NCBI GenBank assembly: GCA_028280575.1
Contig: JANQLN010000068.1
Location: 1 to 64,000, forward strand
Origin: Clostridia bacterium
GTDB taxonomy: Bacteria > Bacillota > Clostridia > Acetivibrionales > STF1-152
Direction of reading: 5' to 3'
DNA: 64,000 nucleotides
The translations under genes were made by a program, and so were the position numbers. This document shows, piece by piece, positions 42,849-63,205 of this stretch (positions within the stretch are counted from its first letter, which is position 1; each line of letters opens with the position of its first letter). The notes under the pieces are model-generated. The model did not search any database. It was not told where the DNA came from and saw only the letters and a list, made by a program, of their open reading frames with translations.

Positions 42849-44699
42849 ATGCTGGGTAAACAGAATATTGAAACATATATACGGAAGAACTTACAATTGG
42901 GTGGCCGGGTTTTAGACGGACATAAGCAAAAAAATGTTATTTACGCAAAACTTGTGATCGGGGATAAAGTTGATATATCTGACTTTGATGATATTCTGAA
43001 TAAATTGTATTATAGATATGATTGTGGTGATTTTGATGTTAACTTACTGGTAAGAATACTTTATTTGTATAGCAATACCGGGCAATTAACTGAGGAAACA
43101 AAAGATGCGATTAAGCAAGCCTTGCTTGATTTTGACTATTGGTTTAGTAAAAACAATAAAAATCCAGGCAAACATATTTTCTGGACGGAAAACCATGTAA
43201 TGCAATTTTATACGGCTGAATACCTTCTTGCCCAATTCTATCCTGACGATACATTCAGAATGAGAGAGAAAAAGGGCAAAGACATGCTGGGCATGTTAAA
43301 GGATCGTGTCCTAGATTGGATTTGGATAAAGGCCAAAACCGGATTCTGCGAGTGGAACTCCAATGCATATACGGGAGGCAATATTTATGCGTTACTCAAT
43401 ATTTATGACTTTTCCGGGGATATGATTGTTCGTAATAAGGCAAAAGACTTATTGGACATCATTATGCTTGATATTGCAGTTAACTCATATAAGGGCAGCT
43501 TTGCTTCTACACATGGCCGTGCTTATGTTAACCATGTGATTTCCACAAAAAATGATAACACTTCATTAGCAACAAAAATATTATGGGACAATATATGCGG
43601 ATTTAATGCAATCAGTTCCAACAGCGGTCTCGCTCTAATGACGAGCGGCTACGATACCCCGTCCATAATAAACAAAATTGCTTGTAACGAACAAGAAGTA
43701 TTGCTCACTAAAGAACAGCAGAGCTTCAATGTGGAGGATGGCCCGGCTTTAGGTAAGGGCTTTGAGGATGAGGAAGACCTGACTTTATATTGGCATAACA
43801 TGGGCTACACCCATCACGATATATTAGAAAAAAACCTTGAAATGGAAAAAAAATATCATCTAAACATTAATGAATGGCCATATAGAGAATATTTGCACCT
43901 TAAGAATAACATGCACAGCAAATCGAAAGAAGGTGCCTGTTATGACCACAATTATTTAAGCAGAGTCAATTTTACAACCTGTAAAACGCCTGACTACATG
44001 ATTAGCTGCGCACAAGATTTCAGAAAAGGCGGGTATGGATTTCAGCAGCATATATGGCAGGCAACAATGGATGGTGATATTACGGTATTTACAAACCACC
44101 CTGGCCCAAATACCCGGCCTTGTTATTGGGCAGGCAGCTATTATTTGCCAAGAGCGGTACAATACAAAAACACCGTCATAAGCATTCATGACATTAAAAG
44201 GAAATGCCATTTTGAATTCACCCATGCACATTTCCCGAGAAGCAAATTTGATGAAGTCTGTGAAATTGATGGATGGATATTTGGTAGAAAAGGAGATGGC
44301 TACATTGCATTGTGTTCGCAAAATCATTATGAGTGGAATAATGAGCATCCATATCTCAATTGTGATGTGGTATGCAAAGCCAGAGAGAACATTTGGATAT
44401 GCCAGATGGGGAGAAAAGAGGATGATGTCAGTTATAAATACTTTGTTGCCGGCATTTTGAGAAGTCAATTGACCTTTTCAGCTCAATCTGTAAAATATGC
44501 GACTCCTAAAGGCGATGTGCTTGAATTCGGCTGGGACGGTGATTTGCTGGTAAACGGCCAAGTAGAGAAAATCCGGGACTACAAGCGGTTTGACAATAAG
44601 TATTGCCAAAGTGAATATATGAGCGGAATATATAAGATTAGTGACGGAACTGACAGTATTGAATATGATTTTACGGATATAAAAAAAATTGATACATAG
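42849..44699 (+). CDS. Uncharacterised alpha/alpha-barrel protein, possible polysaccharide lyase
   Basis: 616 residues without signal peptide. The N-terminal two-thirds are helical, with FWTENHVMQFYTAEYLLAQ and CEWNSNAYTGGNIYALLNIY. These recall the helical toroid of heparinase-II/III and alginate-lyase proteins, and the last third is beta-rich (HYEWNNEHPYLNCDVVCK). The histidine and asparagine in WTENH could be catalytic. I cannot assign a family with certainty. The ATG at 42849 follows AGGGGG; a TTG at 42843 is too close to that site. It belongs to the importer operon behind a terminator-like hairpin. Confidence 0.55.
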   Translation: MLGKQNIETYIRKNLQLGGRVLDGHKQKNVIYAKLVIGDKVDISDFDDILNKLYYRYDCGDFDVNLLVRILYLYSNTGQLTEETKDAIKQALLDFDYWFSKNNKNPGKHIFWTENHVMQFYTAEYLLAQFYPDDTFRMREKKGKDMLGMLKDRVLDWIWIKAKTGFCEWNSNAYTGGNIYALLNIYDFSGDMIVRNKAKDLLDIIMLDIAVNSYKGSFASTHGRAYVNHVISTKNDNTSLATKILWDNICGFNAISSNSGLALMTSGYDTPSIINKIACNEQEVLLTKEQQSFNVEDGPALGKGFEDEEDLTLYWHNMGYTHHDILEKNLEMEKKYHLNINEWPYREYLHLKNNMHSKSKEGACYDHNYLSRVNFTTCKTPDYMISCAQDFRKGGYGFQQHIWQATMDGDITVFTNHPGPNTRPCYWAGSYYLPRAVQYKNTVISIHDIKRKCHFEFTHAHFPRSKFDEVCEIDGWIFGRKGDGYIALCSQNHYEWNNEHPYLNCDVVCKARENIWICQMGRKEDDVSYKYFVAGILRSQLTFSAQSVKYATPKGDVLEFGWDGDLLVNGQVEKIRDYKRFDNKYCQSEYMSGIYKISDGTDSIEYDFTDIKKIDT

Positions 44700-44706
44700 C
44701 ATTCTG

Positions 44707-44740
44707 TATGAAACGTCTTAATTCTTTATTATGACATGGT
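44707..44740 (-). repeat. Dispersed hairpin repeat, copy a (partial)
   Basis: TATGAAACGTCTTAATTC resembles the reverse complement of the unit at 61508-61529 and the same-orientation copy at 56172. Confidence 0.5.
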
Positions 44741-44898
44741 AAGAAAATTATATAGGTGAAGCATTGGATATTCGCGTTGAAAAAGATAAAAATGGGAACA
44801 GGTGCAAGTATCAAGCAGCTTGAGAAGGGTCTTGGAATAGGAAGAAATATAATTCAAAAAACTTAATCAGCAAGTCAAACAAAACGTCCCCTTGACTC
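44741..44898 (+). pseudogene. RAYT (IS200-like) C-terminal remnant with REP palindrome
   Basis: The frame 44792-44866 reads MGTGASIKQLEKGLGIGRNI and ends with a stop, resembling the C-terminal tail of REP-associated tyrosine transposases. Upstream DNA matches the relic at 54890-54990 (GGATATTCGCGT, AAAGATAAAAATGG, ACAGGTGCAAGTATCA). The REP AAGTCAA...TTGACT follows at 44872-44898. Confidence 0.68.
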
Positions 44899-44909
44899 CC
44901 AACTATTTC

Positions 44910-44938
44910 TTGTTGTCAATAGGGTAATAGTATATAAT
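44910..44938 (+). promoter_or_regulatory. Promoter of mntA-hepT
   Basis: TTGTTG (44910-44915), 17 bp, TATAAT (44933-44938), starting 12 bp after the REP palindrome and about 43 bp before the mntA start. Confidence 0.6.
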
Positions 44939-44980
44939 TATATGTGTGAATGAATAGCAATAGTATAAAGGTTGATTAAT

Positions 44981-45382
44981 ATGGAAGAATACTTTAATAC
45001 AATAAAAGAATACTTAATAAAAAAACTGGATCCACACCTGATAATCATATTTGGATCTGCAATACGTGGCGAAATGAACGATGAAAGTGATATAGATGTT
45101 GGTTTTCTCAATGAACAAAAAAATGACCCATATCGAATTTTCTTGCTGTCACAAGAACTTGCAAATATAGTTGGAAAAGATATTGACCTTGTGGATATGT
45201 CGAAATCCTCTACAGTTATGCAGGTGCAAATAATTAGTAGTGGTAAAATAATATATAATGCCAACTACGTTAAAAGTGCGGCTTTTATGATGAAATCCTT
45301 CAAGCAGTATGCAATGCTCAATGAAGAGAGAAAATGTATTTTGGATAAAATAAATGAAAGAGGTAGTATTTATGCAAAATGA
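44981..45382 (+). CDS. mntA: MntA-type minimal nucleotidyltransferase antitoxin
   Basis: 133 residues with the polymerase-beta fold signature FGSAIRGEMNDESDIDVG (Gly25-Ser26 and Asp37/Asp39 as metal ligands); Asp72 in DIDLVD is the third acidic residue. In characterised type VII systems MntA AMPylates the tyrosine of its HepT partner and thereby neutralises it. The ATG at 44981 has AAAGG upstream; the frame also opens with TTG at 44972. The stop overlaps the hepT start by 11 bases, so translation is coupled. A promoter lies at 44910-44938. Confidence 0.88.
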   Translation: MEEYFNTIKEYLIKKLDPHLIIIFGSAIRGEMNDESDIDVGFLNEQKNDPYRIFLLSQELANIVGKDIDLVDMSKSSTVMQVQIISSGKIIYNANYVKSAAFMMKSFKQYAMLNEERKCILDKINERGSIYAK

Positions 45383-45776
45383 CATAATAATAAATAAATG
45401 TGCTACTATAGAAAGATGTATAAAAAGAATAGAACAGGAATATGATAACAACTATGAAAATCTGAAAAACTTTACCAAACAAGACTCCATAATTCTTAAT
45501 ATACAAAGGGCTTGTGAAGCCTGTATTGACCTGGCCATGCATATAGTCTCAATAAAAGGATTGGGAATCCCACAAAAAACAAGAGATGCATTTGATATTC
45601 TCTGCAAAAACGACATTATTAGTGAATTATTAAGTAAAAAAATGAAGTCAATGGTAGGATTCAGAAATATAGCAATCCATGATTATCAGGAATTAAGTTT
45701 ATCTATTATTAATGAAATTATTAAAAAGCATCTTAATGATTTTACTGAATTTACAAGCGTAATATTATCCATATAG
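45372..45776 (+). CDS. hepT: HepT-like HEPN-domain toxin (RNase)
   Basis: 134 residues, all-helical, with the HEPN RX4-6H motif R98-NIAI-H103 followed by D-Y105 in GFRNIAIHDYQ. This is the RX4HXY form in which the tyrosine is the AMPylation target of MntA. The fold is DUF86-like. The expected activity is RNA cleavage that arrests growth or aborts phage infection. The ATG at 45372 follows AGAGG; the earlier ATG at 45354 has no ribosome site. The pair is flanked on both sides by REP/RAYT relics, consistent with a mobile cassette. Confidence 0.88.
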   Translation: MQNDIIINKCATIERCIKRIEQEYDNNYENLKNFTKQDSIILNIQRACEACIDLAMHIVSIKGLGIPQKTRDAFDILCKNDIISELLSKKMKSMVGFRNIAIHDYQELSLSIINEIIKKHLNDFTEFTSVILSI

Positions 45777-45777
45777 C

Positions 45778-45818
45778 AAGTCAAGGAGTCAGAGTCAAAG
45801 GGACGTTTCGTTTGACTT
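45778..45818 (-). repeat. REP-like palindrome, copy 3 (inverted, extended)
   Basis: AAGTCAA, GGAGTCAGAGTC, then AAAGGGACGTTTCGTTTGACTT. This is the reverse orientation of copy 2 at 44872, so the toxin-antitoxin genes sit between inverted copies. Confidence 0.75.
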
Positions 45819-45855
45819 CAACTATATGTAATGTATTTATTAGGGTGAGATTAAC

Positions 45856-45966
45856 ATACCAGGAAAAGTCAGAATGATAAGTAAAACAGAAATTATCACA
45901 CTACGGGGAATATTGGAGAATCAAGAAATAGTTGATGCGGATTTTTGTTTACTTTTCAATTATTGA
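45856..45966 (+). pseudogene. RAYT (IS200-like) N-terminal remnant
   Basis: The frame reads PGKVRMISKTEI, then ITLRGILENQEIVDADF, and stops at 45964. This fits the N-terminus of IS200/RAYT proteins (P-K-R--SKTG-YH---RG----Q-IF-D). DNA from 45819 to 45966 aligns with 54632-54810. The His-hydrophobic-His motif and catalytic tyrosine are gone. Confidence 0.7.
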
Positions 45967-46023
45967 AGAATTCATAAAATATGAGACTGAATAAAGAACC
46001 GTGTAAATGGTAATAATCTCCAC

Positions 46024-46048
46024 ATAAAACAAAACGTCCCCTTGACTT
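46024..46048 (+). repeat. REP-like half-palindrome, copy 4
   Basis: AAAACAAAACGTCCCC followed by TTGACTT; the left arm has decayed. It ends one base before the stop codon (46050-46052) of the last RiPP-cluster gene and marks that edge of the cluster. Confidence 0.75.
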
Positions 46049-46049
46049 C

Positions 46050-47837
46050 CTAAACGGTATACCATTCCATTTGTGCTGTATACATTTTATAATATATACT
46101 ATCAGGGTTATTTATTAATTCTTGATGTGAGCCGTCCTCATGTATGTATCCATCATTAATTACTATAATTCGGTCTGAATATTTGGCAAATCCAAGGCGA
46201 TGGGATACAAAAAATACCAATCTGTCTTTAGCAAGTGAAAAGACTAATTTATAAATGTCAATTTCGGCTAACGGGTCAATATAAGAGGTGGGCTCGTCTA
46301 AAATCCAAACATTTGCTTTTTCATTAGCTATCAGCCTGGCAATTGCTAAACGCTGCCACTGTCCTTTTGATAATTCTATTCCCTCTTCAAGATTACCTAA
46401 CTTAGTATAAATTCCATCAGGTTTTGTTTTTATGAATTCATACAGGCCAACCATCTTTAGTATGTTATTAATTTTATCTGGATTTAGTTCCTTTCCTCCA
46501 CAACCAATTTCTATATTTTCTTTAACACTCATTTGATAGTGCTTAAAATCTTGAATAACTGCAGTAGCACATAAATCATTACAAGAATATTTTCCTTCAT
46601 AATTTTCAAGCAATGATAGAATAATGGAAACAAATGTAGTTTTTCCGCTGCCGTTATAACCAACTACTGCTATCTTTTCACCTTTTTTAAATGATATGTT
46701 TATTCCCTTTAACACATAATTAACAGTCTGAGAATATTTATATTTTAAATTTCTGATTTCTATTAAATTAGTGCTGGCCTGACAATCTATTGTGTTGTGT
46801 TCTTTATAATCCATAACTTCATAATAAGCTTCCAAGACTCTTATATACCAATTACTATTTAGCATAAAAACTGTAAAGCTTTTTACTGTCGAAAATAGAT
46901 TGGTGAGTAGGGCTACAACCATACTAAAATACCCTATATTATATTCGCCGTCTGCCACGCCTTGTCCGACAGACAATATGGTTATGATAAATGTAGCTAG
47001 AAAAAGGGCAGAAGAAACAAGCTCTGATGAAAATGACAAAACATTTAACTTTAAATAATTTTTACGTTCGCATTTATTATAAAATTTATATTTGCTTAAA
47101 AAAAAGGCAAAGCTTCCTTCCACCTGTATATTTTGGTGGTTTATCCTATTGCCTAGAACTCCTTTGAAGTAATTATTTCTGCGTGTCTCGGGAGAAACGT
47201 GTTTTCTCCAATAATCAAGCTGCTTGTCTGTTACAATACCTGCCAAAATTATGTTAATTATCAAAGCTATTAATATTACGACCAGAAACATAGTATTTAT
47301 TTTTGATAAAAGAACTGAATAAACTACAAACATCAATATAATTCTGGCAATTTGTGTTATACCGAATACGGCATTGCTATATTGTCCGCTAGCTTTGCGT
47401 GCAAAATCAATTTTTTCGTGAAATTGATTGTTTTCATAGTACTCGTATGATATATTTGAAAGCTTATTAACTATGCCTTTTTCCACTTCAAAAGATACCT
47501 TATCAACGTATTTTGCTGTTATTCTATAATATAAATTACTCAATAATCTCATAATCAGTAATGCAAGAAGAAACAGTATTATTGATGCAAATATAGTAAA
47601 AAAATTATCATCAATTCCTTGCTTTGAATAAACCGATATGCTATTTGTGGTATATTCCAAAAATTTCAAATCAATAAAGCTAACGCTCATTGTTATACAG
47701 GCAAGGACAATAATCATAATAGTATCAAATTTGAATTTTGAATATAGCTCTTTAATAATTTTCCACTGGATAATAAAGAACTTTTTTGCAGTTATTTTTT
47801 CATTCATGTCCTTACTTTTTACTTTTTTACTCTTCAT
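46050..47837 (-). CDS. ABC exporter half-transporter (membrane plus ATPase), subunit 2
   Basis: 595 residues: six membrane helices (about 20-330) then an ATPase with Walker A VGYNGSGKTTFVS, signature LSKGQWQRLAIARL (degenerate second residue) and Walker B VWILDEPTSYIDP, and switch His in VSHRLGF. No C39 leader peptidase is fused. The start ATG overlaps the stop of subunit 1 (ATGA). Two such half-transporters form a heterodimeric exporter, probably of the modified peptide made by the upstream genes. The LSKGQ signature may mark one composite ATP site as weak. Confidence 0.87.
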   Translation of the reverse strand: MKSKKVKSKDMNEKITAKKFFIIQWKIIKELYSKFKFDTIMIIVLACITMSVSFIDLKFLEYTTNSISVYSKQGIDDNFFTIFASIILFLLALLIMRLLSNLYYRITAKYVDKVSFEVEKGIVNKLSNISYEYYENNQFHEKIDFARKASGQYSNAVFGITQIARIILMFVVYSVLLSKINTMFLVVILIALIINIILAGIVTDKQLDYWRKHVSPETRRNNYFKGVLGNRINHQNIQVEGSFAFFLSKYKFYNKCERKNYLKLNVLSFSSELVSSALFLATFIITILSVGQGVADGEYNIGYFSMVVALLTNLFSTVKSFTVFMLNSNWYIRVLEAYYEVMDYKEHNTIDCQASTNLIEIRNLKYKYSQTVNYVLKGINISFKKGEKIAVVGYNGSGKTTFVSIILSLLENYEGKYSCNDLCATAVIQDFKHYQMSVKENIEIGCGGKELNPDKINNILKMVGLYEFIKTKPDGIYTKLGNLEEGIELSKGQWQRLAIARLIANEKANVWILDEPTSYIDPLAEIDIYKLVFSLAKDRLVFFVSHRLGFAKYSDRIIVINDGYIHEDGSHQELINNPDSIYYKMYTAQMEWYTV

Positions 47838-49651
47838 ACCAATTCAAGTTTCTCCTCATACACCTTTTTTTGTTCATAAAAAAGCTTTGCATAATAGCCA
47901 TTTTTTAAAAGCAGCTGTTCATGGGTTCCCTCTTCTGTAATTTTACCATTTTCAATCATGATAATCCTATCAGCAAGCCTTGCAAAGCCTATTCTATGTG
48001 ATATTAGAATAGCTGTTTTACCTTTGATGTTTTCTCTCAGGCCATTTATCATATCTATTTCTTTTAGCGGGTCAATAGACGCTGTCGGCTCGTCTAATAT
48101 TAATATTTCAGGGTTTCCCAAATAAGCTGAGGCGATAATCAGTTTTTGCCACTCACCCCCGGATAGTTCAACTCCGTCATCATTGTATTCTTTTCCGACA
48201 AAAGTATTATCCGAATCCTTATATTTAGATATAAAAGACTCTATACCTGCTTTTCTATAAGCAATCGTTAATTCGGGCTTGTCATTCATATATTTAATAT
48301 TCCCAAGGCCGACAATTTCTTTTATTGATAATGAAAAACGCGAAAACTCTTGCGGAGCCATACCAAAGTATTGAAATACTCTTGATTTTTCTTGTCCAAT
48401 ATCAAAACCATTAATAGCAACCTTTCCTCTTTGCGGATTAAGGCTTCCGTTAAGTAATTTTGATAACGTTGTTTTTCCGCTGCCGTTATATCCCATTATA
48501 CTGACAATCTCCCCTTTTTTTAAATGCATTTTTAAATCATTAACAGCCGGATTATCACTATTTGGATAACAGTATGTTACGTTAATTGATTCTAAGGATT
48601 CAAAAGAATCAAATACCAAATTATTTGACTCTTTACACTGCTTATTTAATTTTTTCGTCTCAATGTTACCAATAGGAGTTATAAATTCTACATAATCATT
48701 TATATATTTAAGGTCTTTATAAAAGCCATTCATTACAGTACTAACGACTTTATTTATCTGTGTGTATGATGCTTCTATTAAGCCAAACAGCATAACAAAT
48801 GTACCGATATCGTACTTTTTATAATAAATTCCTGTAACTAATATGAGTATCGCAGCTACTCTCAAAAAGAATTTTACTATCAGGGATAAATTATCCAGAC
48901 TAATTCTTTTAAGCGATAAAGCTAAACGTTCCTGCCGAAGATTAGAATAGATATTATCCCACTTCTTGAGGATACTACTTTTATAATCATATATGCGGAG
49001 CTCTTTTGCATACTCCTTTCCAGTTAACAATTCAACAAAATAATCCCTGAACCGTTGTTCCTTTATTTGTTTTTTATCAAGTTCATATTCCTTTTTTGAA
49101 GTGTATTTCAATGTTATAAATGATATAACGGAACATAATATCGAATATGCTATCAACATGGGTTCATATATCACAAAAATCATGATTGTACCAAAAATGG
49201 TGCCCATATTAGAAAAAAACAACATAATAAGATTATTCAAATAAGAACTAATCTTTTGTGTATTATTACTTATAAATGAATACCTTTCCATAAACTTCTT
49301 ATCAAAAAATCTCTCTTGCGGTGTTTCTAAACTTCTCCTCATAAATATACTTTGGAAAAGGAAATCAATATTAAGTCGAAAAAAATTATTACCAAATGCT
49401 TTGAGAAAACTATTTGATATATCTATAAAATACACAATCATATATGCCATGGCAATTCCAAAAAAGGCACCGGTTGTCTGGCCCACTTTAATACTTGAAG
49501 ATAGCTCATTTATGAGATTTTTATTTAATATATTCAATAAAATACTTACGGCCGTTGAAAAAGAAAGTACCAGTATATAAACGAAAATGTAAAAAAAACA
49601 ATATTTAAATGATTTTTTAATTATCCAAAGGATATTATTTATTTGCTTCAT
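47834..49651 (-). CDS. ABC exporter half-transporter (membrane plus ATPase), subunit 1
   Basis: 605 residues: membrane domain (about 15-320) and ATPase with Walker A MGYNGSGKTTLSK, consensus signature LSGGEWQK, Walker B ILILDEPTASIDP and ISHRIGF. GAGGAAG precedes the ATG. It is 42 bases downstream of the radical SAM gene and overlaps subunit 2 by 4 bases. Role: export and self-immunity for the RiPP product (inference from context). Confidence 0.87.
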   Translation of the reverse strand: MKQINNILWIIKKSFKYCFFYIFVYILVLSFSTAVSILLNILNKNLINELSSSIKVGQTTGAFFGIAMAYMIVYFIDISNSFLKAFGNNFFRLNIDFLFQSIFMRRSLETPQERFFDKKFMERYSFISNNTQKISSYLNNLIMLFFSNMGTIFGTIMIFVIYEPMLIAYSILCSVISFITLKYTSKKEYELDKKQIKEQRFRDYFVELLTGKEYAKELRIYDYKSSILKKWDNIYSNLRQERLALSLKRISLDNLSLIVKFFLRVAAILILVTGIYYKKYDIGTFVMLFGLIEASYTQINKVVSTVMNGFYKDLKYINDYVEFITPIGNIETKKLNKQCKESNNLVFDSFESLESINVTYCYPNSDNPAVNDLKMHLKKGEIVSIMGYNGSGKTTLSKLLNGSLNPQRGKVAINGFDIGQEKSRVFQYFGMAPQEFSRFSLSIKEIVGLGNIKYMNDKPELTIAYRKAGIESFISKYKDSDNTFVGKEYNDDGVELSGGEWQKLIIASAYLGNPEILILDEPTASIDPLKEIDMINGLRENIKGKTAILISHRIGFARLADRIIMIENGKITEEGTHEQLLLKNGYYAKLFYEQKKVYEEKLELV

Positions 49652-49693
49652 AATGCTTCCTCATTAATTAATTAAGATAATTGTGCTAATATT

Positions 49694-50734
49694 TTAGCTT
49701 ACAATACTCTTTTTATTTGTTGCATAACGATACAAAAGATGATTAGTTTGCTTTTTCCTGAATAAACATCCTCCATCAGTTCCATAGAAATTGCCTAAAT
49801 GAAAAGCTTTACCTCTGCACCCACCTCTGCAAATACTCTTACAAATACATTGATTGCAATTTGCCAGCTTTTCTTTACTGGCACTTTTTATGTTATTCAG
49901 AATGGTTTTATATTTTTCATTTTTAAAAATGTGTAGTAAATCATGGTCATTGATATTACCTAATATATATTCGTCACTATATAATAATTGACACGGCAAT
50001 ACACAACCTTTGTAATTGATACATAAATTAATTTCACTTTTATCATCTGTTAACGGACAAATATAACCATATTGAATAGGATTTACATCTTCACGGTTAT
50101 TCTTCATCATTAATTCACCAATTAGCAAATGTATTTTATATAAATCATCTACATTTTGAATAAACATGTCTTGTTTGCCTGACGCATTTCCTTGTCTTTC
50201 TAGGAGCCCAAAAATGGGAAGATAATCATAATATGAAATTAAATTATAAAACGCTTTTATGTCTTCTTTATTATAAGCTGAGACTACCATTTTCACAAAT
50301 ATTTTTTTAATACCACTCTTTTTTAACTGATCAATATTATGAATTGTTTTATTGAAGCTTCCATGTCCTCTAACTATATCATTAGTTTCTGCTGTAGCAC
50401 CATCTAAACTTATTTGCAAAGTTAAAAGTGAATATTTTTTGATATATTCTATGAACTTGGTATTAATAAGCGTACCATTAGTAACAATAGTAGCATTTAA
50501 ACCTCTCTTAGTAATATAATCTAGTATTTTCAAAAAATTTTTATGTAATAGTGGTTCGCCACCTGACAGTGTTATGGATTTAGCATTACTGATAAACAAA
50601 TTGTCAACCAATGAACAAATTGCTTTATAAGATATTTCTTCATTGGGATTTTTTGGCGACTGGTTATAGCAATGCTTACAACTTAAATTACATTTTGATG
50701 TTATTTCAATATAACAATTTCCAATTTTTCTCAT
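49694..50734 (-). CDS. Radical SAM/SPASM peptide-modifying enzyme
   Basis: 346 residues. The [4Fe-4S] SAM motif is C15-NLS-C19-KH-C22, followed by SGGEPLL and ISLDGA. The C-terminal SPASM region carries CINYKGCVLPC and CNQCICKSICRGGC, enough cysteines for two auxiliary clusters. Such enzymes make Cys-to-carbon thioethers or carbon-carbon links in ribosomal peptides. Here the likely substrate is the 40-residue peptide encoded at 51456, guided by the PqqD-type protein encoded just upstream. The ATG at 50734 follows GGGTGG; a GTG at 50743 is an alternative. Cross-link type cannot be told from sequence. Confidence 0.87.
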   Translation of the reverse strand: MRKIGNCYIEITSKCNLSCKHCYNQSPKNPNEEISYKAICSLVDNLFISNAKSITLSGGEPLLHKNFLKILDYITKRGLNATIVTNGTLINTKFIEYIKKYSLLTLQISLDGATAETNDIVRGHGSFNKTIHNIDQLKKSGIKKIFVKMVVSAYNKEDIKAFYNLISYYDYLPIFGLLERQGNASGKQDMFIQNVDDLYKIHLLIGELMMKNNREDVNPIQYGYICPLTDDKSEINLCINYKGCVLPCQLLYSDEYILGNINDHDLLHIFKNEKYKTILNNIKSASKEKLANCNQCICKSICRGGCRGKAFHLGNFYGTDGGCLFRKKQTNHLLYRYATNKKSIVS

Positions 50735-50751
50735 AATAGCCACCCGTTAAC

Positions 50752-51312
50752 CTATATTATTTTTTGTATTAGTATACTAGCGTTTAACAATTGATATAAA
50801 AAATGATATGTTTCATCTAGCAATTCCTGTTTATCAACCTGAAACTCGTTTTGTAATGAAAGAATAATTTCAATTAAAGTTGTTTTACCATCAAACTTTT
50901 CTAATATATGTTTTTCCAAATCTTCAAGGACATAAACTATATTTTCTTGTGAATTAAAAATAACATATCCATCATCAATATTCTCTAAATGCAAAGATTT
51001 ATTTGTAATATAGATTTTGTGCTTGTCATCTTTCATTTGTTCATTCTTATCCATCATTTGTTCAATAGTTTCTATTGCTATATCCGTTTCATTTTCTTCA
51101 TTGCCAAAATCATACTTAGTGCAATACCCTCCTGAAAAACTGAAACAAGTATCAGAATTGATATTCTTGTAGATACCTTTTTCATCCAGATTATTACTAT
51201 TAGACCTTTTGCTCATACCCAAACCACATCCTTTATTCATACCCCCTCCAACTCCTTTGCTCATGCCCACTCCACTTTCTTTTATCAGGCTCCGTTCAGA
51301 TATTTTTTTCAT
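50752..51312 (-). CDS. PqqD-type RRE protein with precursor-like N-terminus
   Basis: 186 residues. The C-terminal part (about 105-186) has the PqqD pattern, GYVIFNSQENIVYVLEDLE, FDGKTTLIEI and a final helix with LLDETYHFLYQLLNA. It would bind leader peptides for the radical SAM enzyme. The N-terminal part is unusual. Three Gly-rich repeats (SGVGMSK, GVGGGMNK, GCGLGMSK; residues 13-35) are followed by C56-FSFSGGY-C64, almost the same as C-SNYSGGW-C in the precursor peptide. An acidic linker joins both halves. The ATG at 51312 follows GAAGG; the TTG at 51336 does not. It may be a bifunctional precursor-chaperone fusion. Confidence 0.78.
   Translation of the reverse strand: MKKISERSLIKESGVGMSKGVGGGMNKGCGLGMSKRSNSNNLDEKGIYKNINSDTCFSFSGGYCTKYDFGNEENETDIAIETIEQMMDKNEQMKDDKHKIYITNKSLHLENIDDGYVIFNSQENIVYVLEDLEKHILEKFDGKTTLIEIILSLQNEFQVDKQELLDETYHFLYQLLNASILIQKII
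51121..51147 (-). other. Core-like motif CxxFSGGYC inside the PqqD-type gene
   Basis: Codons for Cys56 to Cys64. Six of nine positions are identical or aromatic-for-aromatic with residues 25-33 of the precursor peptide. Confidence 0.7.
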
Positions 51313-51408
51313 ATAACTACACCTTCTTTCAGTCAAATATATTTTTTTTATAAAACATCTGTAATAATTATAGAATACACTTTATTGAATAATGAAAGAA
51401 AATAAACG

Positions 51409-51436
51409 ATTATAGAACAATATCTTATTAAATCAA
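51409..51436 (-). promoter_or_regulatory. Promoter of the PqqD/rSAM/exporter operon
   Basis: On the minus strand TTGATT (51436-51431), 16 bp, TATAAT (51414-51409). It lies between the precursor and the pqqD-type gene and would allow separate expression. Confidence 0.6.
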
Positions 51437-51455
51437 TTTTCTGTATTCAAATAAA

Positions 51456-51578
51456 TTATTTCGGACTACAATGGTCATCACACCACCCACCGGAATAATT
51501 TGAACAAGCTCCAGCTACAATTTGATTATTGATTGATTCCTGATCCAGCTTTATGAGTTTAAGTGCTCTCCATTTCAT
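51456..51578 (-). CDS. RiPP precursor peptide (40 residues, three-cysteine core)
   Basis: Too short for routine ORF calling. The leader begins MKWRALKLIKLDQESINNQ, followed by IVAGA. The core is CSNYSGGWCDDHCSPK, with Cys25, Cys33 and Cys37. AAAGGAGGTGG lies 8 bases before the ATG, and a promoter is at 51602-51630. AGA before Cys25 fits an Ala-x-Ala cleavage site, which matches the signal-peptidase-like domain in the next gene upstream. The leader has no hydrophobic secretion segment, so it is a modification leader. Location beside RRE, radical SAM, kinase and exporter genes supports it strongly; the thioether or other cross-links are inferred. It does not match the lasso, SCIFF or subtilosin precursors known to me. 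Confidence 0.82.
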   Translation of the reverse strand: MKWRALKLIKLDQESINNQIVAGACSNYSGGWCDDHCSPK

Positions 51579-51601
51579 GCATACCACCTCCTTTACATTC
51601 T

Positions 51602-51630
51602 CTTATAGTATGCTATATAAAATACGTAAA
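51602..51630 (-). promoter_or_regulatory. Promoter of the precursor peptide gene
   Basis: On the minus strand TTTACG (51630-51625), 17 bp, TATAAG (51607-51602). Transcription would start near 51595, only about 10 bases before the ribosome site. Otherwise 51579-51819 holds no gene. Confidence 0.55.
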
Positions 51631-51819
51631 TAGTTAATGATAAGTCTAGTTTTCGCTTTTCCCTTCATTATTCAATAAATAGCAGTCAATAATTACTTTA
51701 ATAGGAATTATATCAATTAACATACAGCATACAAAAATGATTTAAACAAGTTCTTCTATGATTTATTTATTAAATGTATTTTACTCTAATTCCTAAGCTT
51801 AGAGATCATTAATTCCATT

Positions 51820-53370
51820 TCAACCTTTACAGATTACACCTTCCCCTTGCAAATATTTCCTGTTGTATTCTATATTTTTTATATTGTCTTGTGACAATAA
51901 CGGCTTTATTACGCTGAAGCGGTCTTCACAGAAAAGTCTATCAAGGAAAGGGATCGGCCAAGTATTATATTCAGATTCTGCTAATCCAAACCGATCTAAA
52001 AAACCCGGTTCGCCTATTTCTAATTCCTGATAGGGTTCCAATATTGACTTATCGTCGAAAACCAAAGCTGTATAATACAAGGTGTAATATATGTATTTTT
52101 CAATATCATATAGTTTTGCTATCTTAATTACTAGGTCAGTATTTATATTCTCTTTCTTTACTAAACTATATACATCACAAAATCTACGTAAGCTTATACT
52201 TTTATTTCCGGATAATAAGTACAAAGAGCTATGTTCCTTATAATTGTGCAGACAATATTGTATAAAAGCCTTTTCAATGGAAAGTGTATAGAAATCAACC
52301 GAACCATATGTAGTCTTTACGGTATCTGATAAAAAATCTTTTATTTCTATAGATTGGCTTTCATGTTTCCCCCATAAGATAGCAAAGTTAATGTTTATGC
52401 ATATAAAGGGTATTCGTTCATCTGTATTAGGTTTTATATAAGGTAAAACTTGATTAGTAGAGTTTAAATAAAATAACATCTGCTTTCGTGTAAATTTAGA
52501 AATGGTCATATTCTTATTCAGATATCCCTGTACGAAACCCTGTCTTTCTAATATAGATATAATATCTTGGAGATTTTGCTTGTCAATCAATATATTTATT
52601 TCTGATGAACCACTATAAGATTCGTCTTTATATACAGCTTTAGCTAAAGGTAGCCCTTTTATAATTGCATAGGGAAAATCTATAGCAGAAATTATTGGGG
52701 GTAGCATATTATATAGTACCTGATAAGCTGATTTATTCAATACTCTCTTTACTCTTGATACAGCATCTAAGTTAAATTCTTTAAAACCATTCACTTTTGA
52801 TAATAATTCTGTAATATTGTGACGTCGAAATATTCTCAAAGTATCTGCCAATATGTTTTTTGATAAGTGAGCAGTGTCAATTAACCCCTTCTTAAATATT
52901 GAGCGTAATATGTGTAAAACAATATGGTAAAAGTTAGTTTCAACATTTAAGAATAAATTTTTGTACTTTTGATATTCAACGTCCTTTATAATTTTTTCAA
53001 TATTATAATTATAAATCTCTGCTACTTTGTGTACCTTAAAGGCCAAATCGATAAATATATTAATATTATTTATATCTATATATCCTTTTGTTAAATCGAT
53101 TCCTCCCCTTTTTACAGATATAACTTTGCCTATGACGTTGTTTCTACTAACAAATTCCAAACGAAATGAATTATCACCTTTGCATAATAAACGGTTTTTT
53201 TGAACAGAGATAACTCTATGAACAAGATAACCTTCATCCTTATAAGAAAATACGACGATGTCTCCCGGATGATAATCACAAAGTGGCCTTAAGCGAACTA
53301 AATCTCCATCTTTCAGGCGTGGATTCATACTAGCCCCTTTTACAATTATTGTAGTACCTTCAATTGTCAA
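51820..53370 (-). CDS. Fusion of S26 signal-peptidase-like domain and NTase-like domain
   Basis: 516 residues. Residues 1-90 are a SipW/Sec11-type S26 peptidase with Ser14 in KGASMNP, His51 in YLVHRV and Asp66 in KGDN, lacking membrane helices. The remainder matches the uncharacterised nucleotidyltransferase family found in lasso and related clusters (IIKGLPLAKAVYK, then GSSEINILID). The usual metal-binding DxD is Glu257-Ile-Asn259, so the NTase site looks dead or altered. The TTG at 53370 follows AAGGAGG, and its start overlaps the end of the kinase gene by 11 bases. Likely job: leader removal at AGA-Cys of the precursor, with the NTase-like part as a binding or scaffold domain (inference). 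Confidence 0.75.
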   Translation of the reverse strand: MTIEGTTIIVKGASMNPRLKDGDLVRLRPLCDYHPGDIVVFSYKDEGYLVHRVISVQKNRLLCKGDNSFRLEFVSRNNVIGKVISVKRGGIDLTKGYIDINNINIFIDLAFKVHKVAEIYNYNIEKIIKDVEYQKYKNLFLNVETNFYHIVLHILRSIFKKGLIDTAHLSKNILADTLRIFRRHNITELLSKVNGFKEFNLDAVSRVKRVLNKSAYQVLYNMLPPIISAIDFPYAIIKGLPLAKAVYKDESYSGSSEINILIDKQNLQDIISILERQGFVQGYLNKNMTISKFTRKQMLFYLNSTNQVLPYIKPNTDERIPFICININFAILWGKHESQSIEIKDFLSDTVKTTYGSVDFYTLSIEKAFIQYCLHNYKEHSSLYLLSGNKSISLRRFCDVYSLVKKENINTDLVIKIAKLYDIEKYIYYTLYYTALVFDDKSILEPYQELEIGEPGFLDRFGLAESEYNTWPIPFLDRLFCEDRFSVIKPLLSQDNIKNIEYNRKYLQGEGVICKG

Positions 53371-54178
53371 AGTCCATCCTCCTTATCACTTGATTTACAA
53401 ACTTCATTTCAGTGTAACTTATTTTCTTACAGAAGTATTGAGATAGTTGAGTCAGGAATTTTAGATAATTTTCAGATATCTTTACTCTTTGAATAGAGTT
53501 TTCAAGCAATAGTTTTATTTTTTCTCCACAGTTCAATTTTTCAACTGCATTAGTATTTTCTGTTCTTTCAATTAGAAATATTTTTCCAAGCGGTACATTG
53601 CAATTTACTACATTTCCAGGTTTATATATATACCGCTCTGCAATGATATGGTTAAAAAAATGGGTATTAATGTTAATATTATTATTATATAATGCTGTTA
53701 TTCCACCACTCCTCAGATGGATATTACATGGAAAGGGAATTACTTCCTTTGTTTCTCTATCAATTATAGAACAATCATCTGTAATATAACCAAAATCTTG
53801 CTGTATTAAATAAGTAGTCAGTGTTGTCTTTCCACTGCTTGTAGGTCCCACTAGCAAAAAAGCCTCGCCGTTATATTCAACTGCTGCTGCATGAATAGCA
53901 AAAAAACTTCGATTTATTTCAGTATTTTCATAAATAAAGTTTATTATTGTCTGTAAAGGATTTCTAACTTGTGTTCTTTTGTTATTCATATCAATCCATA
54001 TACCGCTATCATTTTTTATTACCTTAATAATAGCGGACTTATTTGTCTGTGCTTTAGCAATAAAAGGCTCGTAATACATTTCTATTTGTTTGATTAATTC
54101 CTTCATATTGGTATGAATCTCAATATCCGTATCATGGCAGGGTCTATTAATATATAATACATTTGTCATGCAGTCCAA
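53360..54178 (-). CDS. HPr-kinase-like protein of RiPP cluster
   Basis: 272 residues resembling the C-terminal kinase domain of HprK. It has Walker A GPTSSGKTT (111-119) and Asp134-Asp135 in YITDDCSIID, within the stretch where HprK holds its catalytic Asp. The N-terminal half (1-95) is specific to peptide clusters. HprK homologues phosphorylate a C-terminal Ser in the lasso peptide paeninodin; here a Ser three residues from the precursor end (CSPK) or others in the core could be the target. The start is TTG 54178 with GGAG at 11 bases, or ATG 54169; neither is clearly better. First gene of the cluster. Confidence 0.75.
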   Translation of the reverse strand: MDCMTNVLYINRPCHDTDIEIHTNMKELIKQIEMYYEPFIAKAQTNKSAIIKVIKNDSGIWIDMNNKRTQVRNPLQTIINFIYENTEINRSFFAIHAAAVEYNGEAFLLVGPTSSGKTTLTTYLIQQDFGYITDDCSIIDRETKEVIPFPCNIHLRSGGITALYNNNININTHFFNHIIAERYIYKPGNVVNCNVPLGKIFLIERTENTNAVEKLNCGEKIKLLLENSIQRVKISENYLKFLTQLSQYFCKKISYTEMKFVNQVIRRMDFDN

Positions 54179-54604
54179 ATAAACATCAACTCCTTTTTTG
54201 TTTTTGGCTATCTACTAATTTTATTATTTATGTTTATTATTTATGCAAGTTTCACACAAACATGAACCTTCAAAGTGGAATATTTAGTGCACCCTATTTC
54301 GTCCTGTCTGTGTTTTTTTTAACCTTTTTGCCGCATCTTTAAATGTAATTTTCCTTATTAAACAGCTACCTCTAAGCTTATTATTTTGACCTTTGACATG
54401 CCTTTTTGAGCAAAAACAACAATAAGTAAATCCATACAATTTTCAATTGACATATTTATACTATACTATATAATTCAATAAAAACCAAACATAAATTGGA
54501 TTACTTCTTCTTTATATGTGATTACAAATATATGGTATACTATAATTTTATTCACGTCAACCTATTTTTGCTAATTTTGTGTAATTTATTTTTATTTGTT
54601 ATTA
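54179..54604. promoter_or_regulatory. Upstream region of RiPP cluster with outward promoter
   Basis: A strong plus-strand promoter is visible: TTGACA (54447-54452), 16 bp, TATAAT (54469-54474). It points to the RAYT relic, and no ORF follows within 150 bases. A minus-strand promoter for the kinase gene is not clear; TTGCAT near 54246 with TAAAAT 19 bases on is weak. The rest is AT-rich. Confidence 0.45.
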
Positions 54605-55057
54605 AAGTCAAAGGGATGTTTTGTTTGCTTTAACTATATGTAATGATATATTTATTAGACAAGGGAGATGATTACTATGCCAAAAAAAGTCAGAATGATA
54701 AGTAAAACAGGGAATTTAACACACCACTAGGAATAGTTATGGAAATTACATGTCGGGAATCAAGGGATAGTTGATACGGATTTTTGTTTTGGTTACTTTT
54801 CAAGTATCAAAGAATACAAAATATAATGAAGAAAAAAGAATGTCTGGATTATTATGACAGGGTGAGGTAAAAAGATGATGGATTAAAGAAAAATATAGGT
54901 GAAAGGGTTGACATAAAGGTAATGGACACATCGGATATTCGCGTAGAAAAAGATAAAAATGGAAACAGGTGCAAGTATCAGGCACTTGAATGGTTCTTGG
55001 AAAAAATATAATTCAAAAAGCTTAATTAGCAAGTCAAACGAAACGTCCCCTTGACTT
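54605..55057 (+). pseudogene. Degenerate RAYT (IS200-like) element bounded by REP palindromes
   Basis: A REP at 54605-54631 (orientation reversed) and a clean REP at 55031-55057 bracket a broken gene. Its start is intact, AAGGGAG then ATG at 54678 reading MPKKVRMISKTGN, and it stops after 17 codons. Further fragments keep VDIKVMDTSDIRVEKDKNGN near 54910-54960. The YHI-RG, HUH and catalytic tyrosine parts are lost. Matches to the relics at 44741 and 45856 show one family of elements. Confidence 0.75.
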
Positions 55058-55150
55058 GCTTTTAAATAAATTCGAGAATTATAAGACATTTTAAAATTTT
55101 CTCCGTATTTATATATGTAAACATAAATTGTGAAACAGGAGTTAATTTAT

Positions 55151-55594
55151 ATGAATAATGACCTTTTTAAATCTCAGAAAAATAAAATGATTGCCGGTGT
55201 TTGCGGAGGAATTGCCGAATTTACCCGGATAGATGCTACAATAATTCGTTTGGCGGTAGCAGCTATAGCATTTGTATTTCAACCGATTATTATCCTTTAT
55301 ATAATTGCTGCCATTGTTATACCCAGATATGACGGCAATGCACAATCAAATATGAATGGAACGTGTTCTTCTGAGGGTAATCAGGATTCTTACTACAATG
55401 CCGGGGATGAAAACGGGCAAAATGATGATTATGATCCGCAAAATACAAGAGTTGTTTTGGGAGGAGCATTGATTTTGATTGGTGCAGGTTTTCTTTCAAA
55501 TTATATGTTTCCACAGTTTTATGAAAAGTTTTTCTGGCCATTTTTATTCATAGCGGCAGGTGCCGCAGTAATATATACTTCATATAAGAAATAA
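55151..55594 (+). CDS. PspC-domain membrane protein
   Basis: 147 residues. The N-terminal PspC domain reads KNKMIAGVCGGIAEFTRID, followed by a membrane helix (about 35-58). An acidic, Asn-rich linker (60-100) leads to two further hydrophobic segments at the C-terminus (LGGALILIGAGFLS and FWPFLFIAAGAAVIY), like the LiaF-type membrane part. CAGGAG precedes the ATG at 55151. Such proteins act in envelope-stress sensing. It stands alone; from 55595 to 55939 only AT-rich sequence is seen. Confidence 0.87.
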   Translation: MNNDLFKSQKNKMIAGVCGGIAEFTRIDATIIRLAVAAIAFVFQPIIILYIIAAIVIPRYDGNAQSNMNGTCSSEGNQDSYYNAGDENGQNDDYDPQNTRVVLGGALILIGAGFLSNYMFPQFYEKFFWPFLFIAAGAAVIYTSYKK

Positions 55595-55939
55595 AAGCAT
55601 GTAATCCTGCTTATACATGTACCAATCTTTTATTGAAAAAATAGTTAGCTTCAAGTATCATATTAGCTGTTGATTTTTAAACATTGATAATAAAATTTTC
55701 GCTATAGTAATAGTTAACCGGCTTTTATATGCATGTCCGTTTAAAGAAAGATTATGTATTAATAGGTTTAGAGATTTCTAAAGTGCACATTACCTGTGTA
55801 AAAAAATTTTTTTAGAATAAAAAAAACAAATCAATTGGAAATTATTCCCGGAAGCTGCAGGGAGTTTACTTTAATTATAGTAACAATTTTTTTCTTTTTT
55901 GAATAAGATGGTATATAAGAGTTTGGGGAGGTATGTCAA

Positions 55940-56092
55940 TTGGCAGAGAATAGAGGGGTTTTAGATTGGTTTTTTGGAGACTGTACAATCTTGTGGTTTA
56001 TAATTCTTTTCCTGCTATTGTTCTACGGCTGTAATTTTTATGGTACCGGATACAGGGGGGACGCTGTAGATATCGGTCCGGTGGAGGAGTAG
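55940..56092 (+). CDS. Small single-pass membrane protein (50 residues)
   Basis: TTG start at 55940 with GGGGAGG eight bases upstream. It begins MAENRGVLDWFFGDCT, then a membrane segment ILWFIILFLLLFYGC, and ends GTGYRGDAVDIGPVEE. The layout (short polar N-terminus, one helix, Gly-rich tail) is like small spore- or sporulation-associated membrane proteins of Clostridia, which is only a suggestion. It is too short for usual ORF calling. Confidence 0.6.
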   Translation: MAENRGVLDWFFGDCTILWFIILFLLLFYGCNFYGTGYRGDAVDIGPVEE

Positions 56093-56171
56093 AATAATTA
56101 AATCCATTTATAGTCGGGATTAAGCAGCGGGCTTTTAGGCATTTATTCGTGCCTTGAAAGTCCGTTGATTT

Positions 56172-56232
56172 ATATGAAACGTCATTAATTCTTGTAATAT
56201 GGTTTTTGAAATGTGTTTTCCAAAGCCATATT
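56172..56232 (-). repeat. Dispersed hairpin repeat, copy b
   Basis: AATATGG (56196-56202) pairs with CCATATT (56226-56232); the flank TATATGAAACGTCATTAATTC is the reverse complement of the tail found behind the hairpins at 61469 and 62700. Confidence 0.65.
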
Positions 56233-56289
56233 CTATAGAGTATTACGCTTGCATTTAAGCTGTACATAAAAACGCCGGGAGGGAATGTA

Positions 56290-58041
56290 ATGTCCGACAA
56301 TGAACATGTTAAAACAGTGAATGGGAAAGTGCTGGATAATAAAAATGGAATAAATAATATTGAAATTTATCTTTACCGTGTTGTACAGAAAAGAGAGCTT
56401 GAGGATGGTCCGACTGTTTATCTTGAAACTTTTTATGGAAGTACCCGGACATCAAAAGACGGAGGATTTTATTTTATTGTTCCGGAAGGGGATTATTCGT
56501 TAGCGGTTAATATAGATTCACTTCCTGATGGGAAAACCGTATTAAAAAAAGATTACTTTCTGGAAAAATCCGTACACGATCTGACCATAAACCTGGTAGG
56601 CAAAGAGCTGGAAAAGACCGGCGGCAGCCATATGCCGGAACGGCCGCAGATAAAAAAGGATGCCATTGATATAATCAGGAGCGACTACAGAAATGGAGTC
56701 ATTAACAGGGAACAAATGGTAAGGAATATCCTCTACAGTATATTTGACAAATCAAAACTGGCAGAAAAATATACAAAAAGAAGAAGCATACCTATAAAAT
56801 GTGCAACTACCGCCTTAGAGGAGATCAGGGAATATTCTGCAAGCAGGTATGCAGATCCTGCCCTGGCGTCAGAAGCAAGAAGGTATATAAGCAATATGAT
56901 TCCTTCACTTGAAAAAAGCTATATAAGCAAAAGCGGCAATTTCAAAATATTTTATACAACTGAAGGAAGGCATGCGGTCTCCCTGAAGGACAGCAATAGA
57001 AACGGCGTACCCGATTATATCGAGGACGTAGCTTATGCCATGGAAAATGTAAGGACCGTTACCTGTGGACAGCGCGGCTTCAAGTATCCGCTCCTGGGCG
57101 GAAAAAATAGCTACTATAAAGTCTATCTTTATGACCTTGACGGCATATACGGATATACTGCATCTTCTTATAAAAGAGGCTATGGCAGCAGGGTAACATC
57201 ATCTTCCTTTCTGGCGCTTGATAATAACTATTCTTCAAAAAAAGGATTTGAAATATCAAGAAATGCTGCTATGAAAGTTACGGCAGCACATGAATATTTC
57301 CATGCCGTTCAATATGCGTATAATATGGATGCTGACAAATGGTGGAAGGAAGCTTCGGCAACATGGAATGAAGACGAATTGTATTCATCGGTCAATGATT
57401 ATTTCAGGTATATTGACGATATTTTTGAACAGCCTAATAAATCTTTGGATGAATATACTTACAGCGGTGTAGTGTTTGCCAAATACATTACCGAGTATAA
57501 TAAAGGGTATGAAAGCATGAAACGGATTTGGGAAATTCAGAATGAAAAGACCGACAACAGCATTAATGCTATTGACCGGTTTTCAAAAGAAGGCAAGAAT
57601 AAAAGCATAGGCGATATATTCAACAGGTTTTCAGCATATAACTTCAATCCTTCACAGTACTACGAAGAGGGCAGACAGTGGGACAGCAAACTGGCTGTCC
57701 AAAATACCTACGAGCAGTACCCTGTATTTTCCAGAAACAACAAGCTTGACCATCTTGCTGCCGATTACCAGCTATTTAAGTTGAGCGGGGTTAACAGCAG
57801 CAATGTCAGAATAACAGTTGAAGGCATCAGCAGTATAAAGTGGGGATTTAAGCTCCAGAAGAAAAGGAAAAGCGACGGCAGGTGTGACACCACATATATA
57901 GAGCTGGGAGAAGCAGCCAACAGGGCGGAGATTATACTAAAGAAGGCAGGGCAAACCTACAGCGAAATATGCCTTATACCGGCAAACCTGGATAAAAGCA
58001 AAGACGGAGCATCATATGATTATTCCCTAAACATTGAATGA
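56290..58041 (+). CDS. MXAN_6640-type putative metalloprotease
   Basis: 583 residues. N-terminal carboxypeptidase-regulatory-like beta-domain (about 8-105; TSKDGGFYFIVPEGDYSL). The metalloprotease core has DSNRNGVPDYIEDVA (calcium-like loop) and the zinc motif H334-EYF-H338 in AAHEYFHAVQ, with Glu354 in WWKEASATW as probable third ligand. The C-terminal beta-domain starts near 490. The family is usually secreted, but no signal peptide is visible here, which is odd. GGGAGGG precedes the ATG. Substrate unknown. Confidence 0.78.
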   Translation: MSDNEHVKTVNGKVLDNKNGINNIEIYLYRVVQKRELEDGPTVYLETFYGSTRTSKDGGFYFIVPEGDYSLAVNIDSLPDGKTVLKKDYFLEKSVHDLTINLVGKELEKTGGSHMPERPQIKKDAIDIIRSDYRNGVINREQMVRNILYSIFDKSKLAEKYTKRRSIPIKCATTALEEIREYSASRYADPALASEARRYISNMIPSLEKSYISKSGNFKIFYTTEGRHAVSLKDSNRNGVPDYIEDVAYAMENVRTVTCGQRGFKYPLLGGKNSYYKVYLYDLDGIYGYTASSYKRGYGSRVTSSSFLALDNNYSSKKGFEISRNAAMKVTAAHEYFHAVQYAYNMDADKWWKEASATWNEDELYSSVNDYFRYIDDIFEQPNKSLDEYTYSGVVFAKYITEYNKGYESMKRIWEIQNEKTDNSINAIDRFSKEGKNKSIGDIFNRFSAYNFNPSQYYEEGRQWDSKLAVQNTYEQYPVFSRNNKLDHLAADYQLFKLSGVNSSNVRITVEGISSIKWGFKLQKKRKSDGRCDTTYIELGEAANRAEIILKKAGQTYSEICLIPANLDKSKDGASYDYSLNIE

Positions 58042-62693: not shown

Positions 62694-62699
62694 TTTTTA

Positions 62700-62760
62700 T
62701 GCAACATGACTTTTGGCAGATTTCAAAAGCAGTATTGCAAGAATTAAAGATGTTCCATAT
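62700..62760 (+). repeat. Dispersed hairpin repeat, copy e
   Basis: TGCAACATGAC ... GCAGTATTGCA (hairpin partly decayed), then AGAATTAAAGATGTTCCATAT. It sits in the gap between the first two genes of the homocysteine operon, at the same distance from the next start as copy d. Confidence 0.65.
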
Positions 62761-62780
62761 TTATATAAGGGGAAATAGAA

Positions 62781-63203
62781 ATGAATAAAATCAAGGTAAC
62801 AATGTATTTTCGCGCAAACGAACTGACAATGCCGTTAACGTATCACCTGGTTAAGGATTATGACCTTAAGCTGAATATACTGCACGCAGATATCAGCTTA
62901 AACAAGGTAGGGAAGCTTGTTGTCGATATTACGGGCACCGATGAGAATATAAAGGAAGGTCTGGATTTTGTCAAGCAAAAAGGTGTCGAATACAAGATTT
63001 TCAATAAGAGTATAATATGGAAAGAGGGAGAATGTGTCCACTGCGGGGCATGTACCGCAGTATGTCCTTCGGGGGCATTGGCTATGGATAAGGATACCTG
63101 GGAGCTGACTTTTTACAGGGATAAATGCCTTGTGTGCGGCCTATGTGTTAAAGCCTGTCCTTTAAAGGTAATGACTTTGGCCGACAATGGCAATGGGTCA
63201 TAG
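62781..63203 (+). CDS. NIL-domain ferredoxin (homocysteine biosynthesis partner)
   Basis: 140 residues. The N-terminal NIL domain (1-75) is followed by two [4Fe-4S] motifs: CVHCGACTAVCPSGA (about 86-100) and CLVCGLCVKACPLKV (about 116-130). It supplies electrons to, or shares a cluster with, the COG1900 protein. GGGGAAA precedes the ATG; the next gene starts two bases after its stop. Confidence 0.9.
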   Translation: MNKIKVTMYFRANELTMPLTYHLVKDYDLKLNILHADISLNKVGKLVVDITGTDENIKEGLDFVKQKGVEYKIFNKSIIWKEGECVHCGACTAVCPSGALAMDKDTWELTFYRDKCLVCGLCVKACPLKVMTLADNGNGS

Positions 63204-63205
63204 CC

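Follow-up and report, generated by a model that had tools for sequence, protein, structure and literature searches.

The operon and its surroundings

The window studied here, a stretch of 64,000 nucleotides from a Clostridia bacterium, carries on its minus strand an operon (46050-54178) of six enzyme and exporter open reading frames (ORFs) and one ORF of 40 codons, which lies between the peptidase and PqqD genes:

53360..54178 (-), HprK-like kinase, 272 aa
51820..53370 (-), fusion of an S24/S26 signal-peptidase-type protease and an NTP_transf_5 nucleotidyltransferase (NTase), by Pfam and NCBIfam
51459..51578 (-), precursor peptide gene, 40 aa: MKWRALKLIKLDQESINNQIVAGA followed by CSNYSGGWCDDHCSPK
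51459..51506 (-), predicted core CSNYSGGWCDDHCSPK, with predicted cleavage between AGA and C
50752..51312 (-), PqqD-type RRE protein, 186 aa (PqqD Pfam 1.5e-6, above cut-off)
51121..51147 (-), second core-like motif, CFSFSGGYC, in the N-terminal extension of the PqqD protein
49694..50734 (-), radical SAM/SPASM peptide maturase (Radical_SAM 1e-26, SPASM 5.8e-9)
47834..49651 (-), ABC exporter half 1 (ABC_tran 3.5e-26), resembling MsbA and NHLM exporters
46050..47837 (-), ABC exporter half 2 (ABC_tran 4e-19), MsbA-like

An earlier note on this DNA had described this operon (kinase, peptidase/NTase, PqqD, radical SAM/SPASM enzyme and ABC pair), and each of these assignments is backed by both Pfam and NCBIfam. 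The genes are tightly packed, with overlaps of 11 bp between the kinase and peptidase genes and of 4 bp between the two ABC halves; the peptidase-NTase gene starts with TTG. In the Pfam results for the operon proteins, neither a B2 transglutaminase-like peptidase nor an asparagine-synthetase cyclase domain appeared, which bears out the note's view of lasso-type accessories mixed with a radical SAM enzyme and lacking the lasso B2 and C enzymes. An Rfam scan of 44000-56500 returned no match.

The GC content of the operon is 28-31%, compared with mostly 35-45% around it. Dispersed REP-like repeats ending in AAAACGTCCCCTTGACT, with 28 matches genome-wide, lie on both sides of the operon:

44762-44897, 45849-45981, 54670-54825 and 54929-55056, copies of the REP-like repeat

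The host is also the sole genome with the radical SAM enzyme among 58 genomes of its order. The low GC content, this sole carriage and the flanking repeats together suggest that the operon was acquired horizontally. We were not able to find a relative of the cluster in the plasmid collection, and the viral contigs held generic radical SAM proteins only, the best full-length match being about 28% identical.

Two neighbouring gene sets were recognized by eye. A pair at 44972-45776 (+) resembles an MNT nucleotidyltransferase/HEPN toxin-antitoxin system (motifs GSxxRGxxxxxSDIDV and RNxxxH), and the genes at 61545-63928 (+) resemble an anaerobic homocysteine-biosynthesis set (DUF39-like, NIL/ferredoxin and UPF0280-like).

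The precursor gene and its family

The ATG of the 40-codon ORF, at 51578, is preceded by a Shine-Dalgarno sequence (AAAGGAGGTGG / AAAGGAGG). Related precursors were collected as short ORFs with a ribosome-binding site that lie near relatives of the radical SAM enzyme and share a W/YxKP leader. An HMM built from 11 other precursors, with that of the window left out, was run against 5102 short ORFs and recovered the one in the window at E=2.7e-6; the second-best window ORF reached 0.41. In all 20 non-redundant precursors the distance from the leader aromatic to the start of the core is exactly 22 residues; part of this set came from a profile containing these columns, and precursors found by the leader pattern alone show the same spacing and residue pattern. 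These three lines of evidence support the earlier claim that the ORF is a precursor gene, and other copies of the gene set are indeed accompanied by homologous short ORFs, which passes the refutation test that the note had set. We take the short gene to be genuine because about 19 distant relatives have the same leader at identical spacing. That the ORF is no gene and resembles the others by chance is extremely improbable: it has only 40 codons and no relative is found in the host's own order, but this reading is already contradicted by the leave-one-out HMM, the ruler and the strong Shine-Dalgarno sequence together.

A 12-row profile of the family, searched in 391 Clostridia-class genomes, gave strong matches in 9, among them all 7 that bear the radical SAM enzyme; most of these 7 had fed the profile, while G132 had not, nor had the extra matches in G084, G149, G159 and G071. 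Some strong matches (L138, L139) are orphans on short contigs, with the enzymes not in view. Over 300 genomes of the phylum, the precursor HMM returned the window and one weak match (L264) only; the surroundings of the latter hold no RiPP genes, and we rejected it as probably a chance match. NCBIfam and Pfam scans assigned the precursors to no family, one member being weakly paeninodin-like (E=0.0016).

The earlier note had also given the gene its own promoter. This was not borne out by a promoter scan, which counted 66 sites against 63.7 +/- 8.9 in shuffles, with none convincing just upstream. An imperfect inverted repeat (51365-51402 / 51658-51695; 38 nt, 82%) flanks the precursor gene on both sides, and 150 shuffles of the intergenic region never reached its score. 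It may represent a small mobile cassette or have a regulatory function.

The residues around the predicted cut are constrained as well. Position -1 is A or G and position -5 is I, V or M in all 20 precursors, and position -3 is A, L, I, V, S or T. Core position +2 is Ser in 19 and Thr in one, and a Cys lies 3-8 residues downstream of this Ser/Thr2 in every core. The family signature can be written as a W/YxKP leader, then [AG] before the cut and x-S/T-x(2-7)-C after it. An A or G at -1 with a small or aliphatic -3 is the rule of signal peptidases, although the hydrophobic signal segment is absent. The leader in the window lacks the Pro of WxxP, reading W-R-A-L; its core contains three Cys and has a computed linear monoisotopic mass of 1757.62.

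The CxxxSGGxC pattern, which the earlier note had proposed as a mark of such peptides, did not serve as one: among the 391 Clostridia-class genomes, a plausible precursor with this pattern occurs only here. The 30 outside matches whose loci were read turned out to be out of frame, interrupted, or without a precursor-like leader.

Most cores (15 of 20) carry Y, F or W at +4, as in C-S-x-[Y/F/W], and SPASM enzymes are generally known to catalyse diverse cross-links (PMC8326336). The radical SAM enzyme might thus link this aromatic residue through a C-C or C-O bond, or modify it in another way, instead of forming a Cys thioether. We consider this unlikely, since the remaining five cores have no aromatic residue at +4, whereas the Cys past Ser/Thr2 is present in all.

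Enzymes, relatives and a second core copy

The CxxxCxxC motif of the radical SAM enzyme (C15/C19/C22) and its SPASM cysteines (C226, C248, C293, C296, C302, C306 and C323) are invariant in seven family members. Its nearest curated model is the StsB sactipeptide maturase, with a score of 139 bits where the cut-off is 625, and its nearest RiPP maturases of solved structure are SkfB (2.2e-29) and 5wgg (1.6e-20), all of them distant. At E<=1e-40, relatives were found in 7 of the 391 Clostridia-class genomes, the window's own included, and more on named contigs. We were able to find similar gene sets at about 15 Clostridia-class loci, where identity of the radical SAM enzyme is mostly 29-37%.

In relatives of the cluster (L023, L024, L026, L028 and L030), FkbH-type HAD enzymes are often present as well, either joined to acyl carrier proteins or encoded close to them, and L026 also carries a BtrH_N-like protein. 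These genes suggest that the products are decorated with a glyceryl or acyl group, for which the window has no counterpart. We found no papers in the open literature that join FkbH with RiPPs. A protein of about 350 aa with a C-terminal ArsR-like winged helix often precedes the precursor gene in relatives (L023:5260-6312, L025:5241-6287, L033:1199-2260 and L018:12178-13308), and the window is without it.

The kinase matches the NCBIfam models TIGR04352 (1.5e-10), TIGR04355 (1.7e-10) and ScmC (3.3e-7), each time under the equivalog cut-off, and its active-site motifs HA.A, G.T..GKTTL and [TS]DD are retained across 15 sequences. A kinase search of 399 genomes of the phylum at E<=1e-25 returned the window alone. 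PDB sequence searches with the kinase, peptidase and RRE gave no informative match.

In the fusion protein, residues 1 to about 90 form the peptidase and about 230-440 the NTP_transf_5 domain. The peptidase motifs GxSMxP, HR and KGD do not vary among 15 sequences and mark a Ser/His enzyme like the archaeal, SipW and ER signal peptidases. In the window copy, Ser14, His51 and Asp66 (of GDN) fall in columns conserved across these 15, and the N-terminal helix that relatives have is missing. The AlphaFold model of the fusion has a mean pLDDT of 83. A structure search with it, in which all matches had E>0.001, placed LexA, SpsB, SipA and SPC on top and nucleotidyltransferases weaker. Six relatives have the peptidase fused to a PqqD/RRE domain, which ties it to handling or removal of the leader. 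The NTase metal motif, D-[ILV]-D (DxD) in the family, reads E-I-N (EIN) in the window, so that the NTase domain is probably inactive, with the usual decoration probably lost in this copy.

This EIN motif, together with the change from WxxP to WxxL in the leader and the low-GC island, might indicate a decaying remnant, that is, an acquired cluster whose product is no longer made. Such decay is quite unlikely, given that the reading frames of the six long genes and of the precursor are uninterrupted, that the gene overlaps are preserved, and that the catalytic motifs are intact in the radical SAM enzyme, the kinase, the peptidase and both ABC ATPases. Judged by its sequence, the operon is functional-looking and the precursor genuine.

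Another reading is a plain sactipeptide or ranthipeptide cluster, in which a radical SAM thioether would be the defining feature and the kinase and NTase would be marginal or act on another target. With StsB as the best curated match, SkfB as the best solved one and three Cys in the core, this has some appeal, but we regard it as unlikely: the radical SAM enzyme is far under every curated cut-off shown, the kinase and peptidase active sites are kept across relatives just as in the radical SAM enzyme, and Cys1 is absent from 6 of the 20 cores while all keep Ser/Thr2.

The RRE protein contains a second copy of the core motif, which the earlier note had missed. The RRE itself is short and divergent. 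In its AlphaFold model, residues 1-71 have pLDDT <50 (disordered), 72-98 form a helix and 99-185 the RRE fold (about 88-95). The N-terminal extension, absent from relatives, holds CFSFSGGYC, compared with CSNYSGGWC in the precursor. These two, separated by about 360 bp, are the sole matches of the pattern C..[FY]SGG[aromatic]C in the 4.35 Mb genome, and the chance expectation of a match within the PqqD protein is about 1e-7 (0 of 400,000 shuffles). No leader precedes this copy, with a Ser at -22 and no W or Y. The copy may stem from a precursor fragment that fused to the RRE and is modified in cis, or it may be a relic; in the former case, modification would proceed without a leader because the copy is tethered to the leader-binding domain.

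A proposed pathway and its place among known systems

Linear polyphosphorylated peptides (LPP) were described by Popov et al. 2026, with a core set of a SipW-like SpI peptidase, a discrete RRE, an HprK-like kinase, an NTP transferase and an MsbA-like exporter (PMC13381572). LppS removes the LPP leader only with the RRE, and mutants of its Ser, His and Asp (the catalytic Asp being D93) are dead; LppK puts phosphates on core Ser3, near the N-terminus; deletion of the NTP transferase made no change in the study host (PMC13381572). The LPP leader consensus is YxxPxVLxHQxIxFETxxS, with Y at -16 and the cut at FET/xxS, and the Pro of YxxP/WxxP matters for RRE binding (PMC13381572).

We consider it probable that the locus encodes an LPP-type (SipW-peptidase/HprK-kinase) RiPP operon with an added radical SAM/SPASM enzyme. 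The RRE (PqqD) would bind the leader through its aromatic W3, and the radical SAM enzyme would form an oxidative cross-link, most likely a Cys thioether, in the core's conserved Cys region. Phosphorylation of the invariant core Ser2 is the predicted task of the HprK-like kinase, the Ser/His signal-peptidase-like domain would cut between VAGA and CS, and the ABC heterodimer would export the product. The sequence basis of this pathway is the precursor family, the fixed leader length, the cleavage-site and Ser/Cys pattern and the intact active-site motifs. Its experimental basis comes from the LPP relatives, namely RRE-requiring SipW-like cleavage and a phosphorylated Ser near the core N-terminus (PMC13381572), and these peptidase and kinase experiments lend independent support to the roles proposed here for both enzymes. 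We infer the radical SAM chemistry, the order of the steps and the biological role. The similarity of the radical SAM enzyme to the thioether-forming SkfB and StsB favours the proposed pathway; because the radical SAM family is broad, the thioether is only the likeliest of several chemistries. Points against the LPP-type reading are the lost Pro in the leader of the window, the missing peptidase helix, the departure from the LPP leader consensus and the orphan precursor matches on short contigs.

The locus thereby joins two RiPP logics that were previously apart, phosphorylation with SipW-like processing (LPP/lasso) and radical SAM cross-linking, and the system opens a direct way to test for mutual dependence of phosphorylation and radical cross-linking. 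The strict ruler of the precursor family, which sets the aromatic 22 residues away from the cut, can be used for mining more clusters. The core copy in the RRE protein offers a concrete case in which to ask if an RRE can stand in for a leader in cis. It is possible, if doubtful, that the locus represents a phospho-thioether hybrid class beside LPP and lasso peptides, with the PqqD extension as a second, leaderless cis substrate.

The HPr-rel-A and SynChlorMet systems (TIGR04352/04353/04355, TIGR04248-04251) share an HprK-related kinase and a PqqD-like protein with the window, and SynChlorMet also a radical SAM enzyme. However, the proteins in the window score far under these cut-offs, the kinase with 40.7 against the 200 bits of TIGR04352 and the RRE with 16 against the 35 of TIGR04353; the RRE of relative L030 passes the latter (42.4 versus 35). 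Sactipeptides and ranthipeptides (StsB, SkfB, CteB, PapB) likewise combine a radical SAM/SPASM maturase with a Cys-bearing core, but the window enzyme falls well below the curated maturase cut-offs, and these classes as described have no kinase, signal-peptidase-type protease or NTase.

Lasso peptides of the paeninodin/pseudomycoidin type (PMC8498205) share the HprK-like kinase, NTase, PqqD RRE and W/YxxP leader. In contrast to them, the operon has no B2 peptidase (a B2-like gene lies elsewhere in the genome) and no macrolactam cyclase, and the C-terminal Ser, the lasso kinase site, is found in no precursor of the family. The same genome has a second RiPP-like cluster (L262:8077-13577, on G000:C103), with genes for a radical SAM/SPASM enzyme, a PqqD protein, an HprK-like kinase, an NTase with a DID motif, a transporter and a lasso B2-type peptidase that passes the NCBIfam cut-off. 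Its candidate precursor is 47 aa long (MEKRNLIGAYEKPELVKHETLKEVTMSSRSRGGCSTCRGDEDEDDDD) and has a YxKPxL leader; no gene of asparagine-synthetase size lies near it. In this genome W goes with the signal-peptidase cluster, and Y with the B2 one. Popov et al. assigned the two residues the other way round for LPP and paeninodin, so that the second cluster is a mirror image of the W/Y discrimination that they described.

The earlier note knew of no described class with this combination. This no longer holds for the kinase/signal-peptidase/RRE/NTase set, published in May 2026 as LPP; the radical SAM enzyme goes unmentioned there, the words "radical" and "thioether" being absent from the main text of PMC13381572. 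In the open literature, outside which subscription papers and preprints fall, we found no paper that links radical SAM to HprK and PqqD, or paeninodin to SPASM. The system shares with LPP the SipW-like/archaeal-type peptidase, RRE, HprK kinase, NTP transferase and MsbA-like exporter, the absence of a macrolactam cyclase, the [Y/W]xxP leader and an apparently phosphorylatable Ser/Thr early in the core (+2 in all 20 precursors here). It differs in its leader, which departs from the LPP consensus and has the aromatic at -22 instead of -16, in an AxA/G cleavage site (A or G before the cut and xS after it) in place of FET, and in having Ser2 where LPP have Ser3. It differs further in its radical SAM/SPASM gene and short Cys-bearing core, in its clostridial hosts, and in the fusion of the peptidase to the NTase or to the RRE. 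Our preferred reading of the locus is accordingly a radical-SAM-bearing, LPP-like variant with a Cys core.
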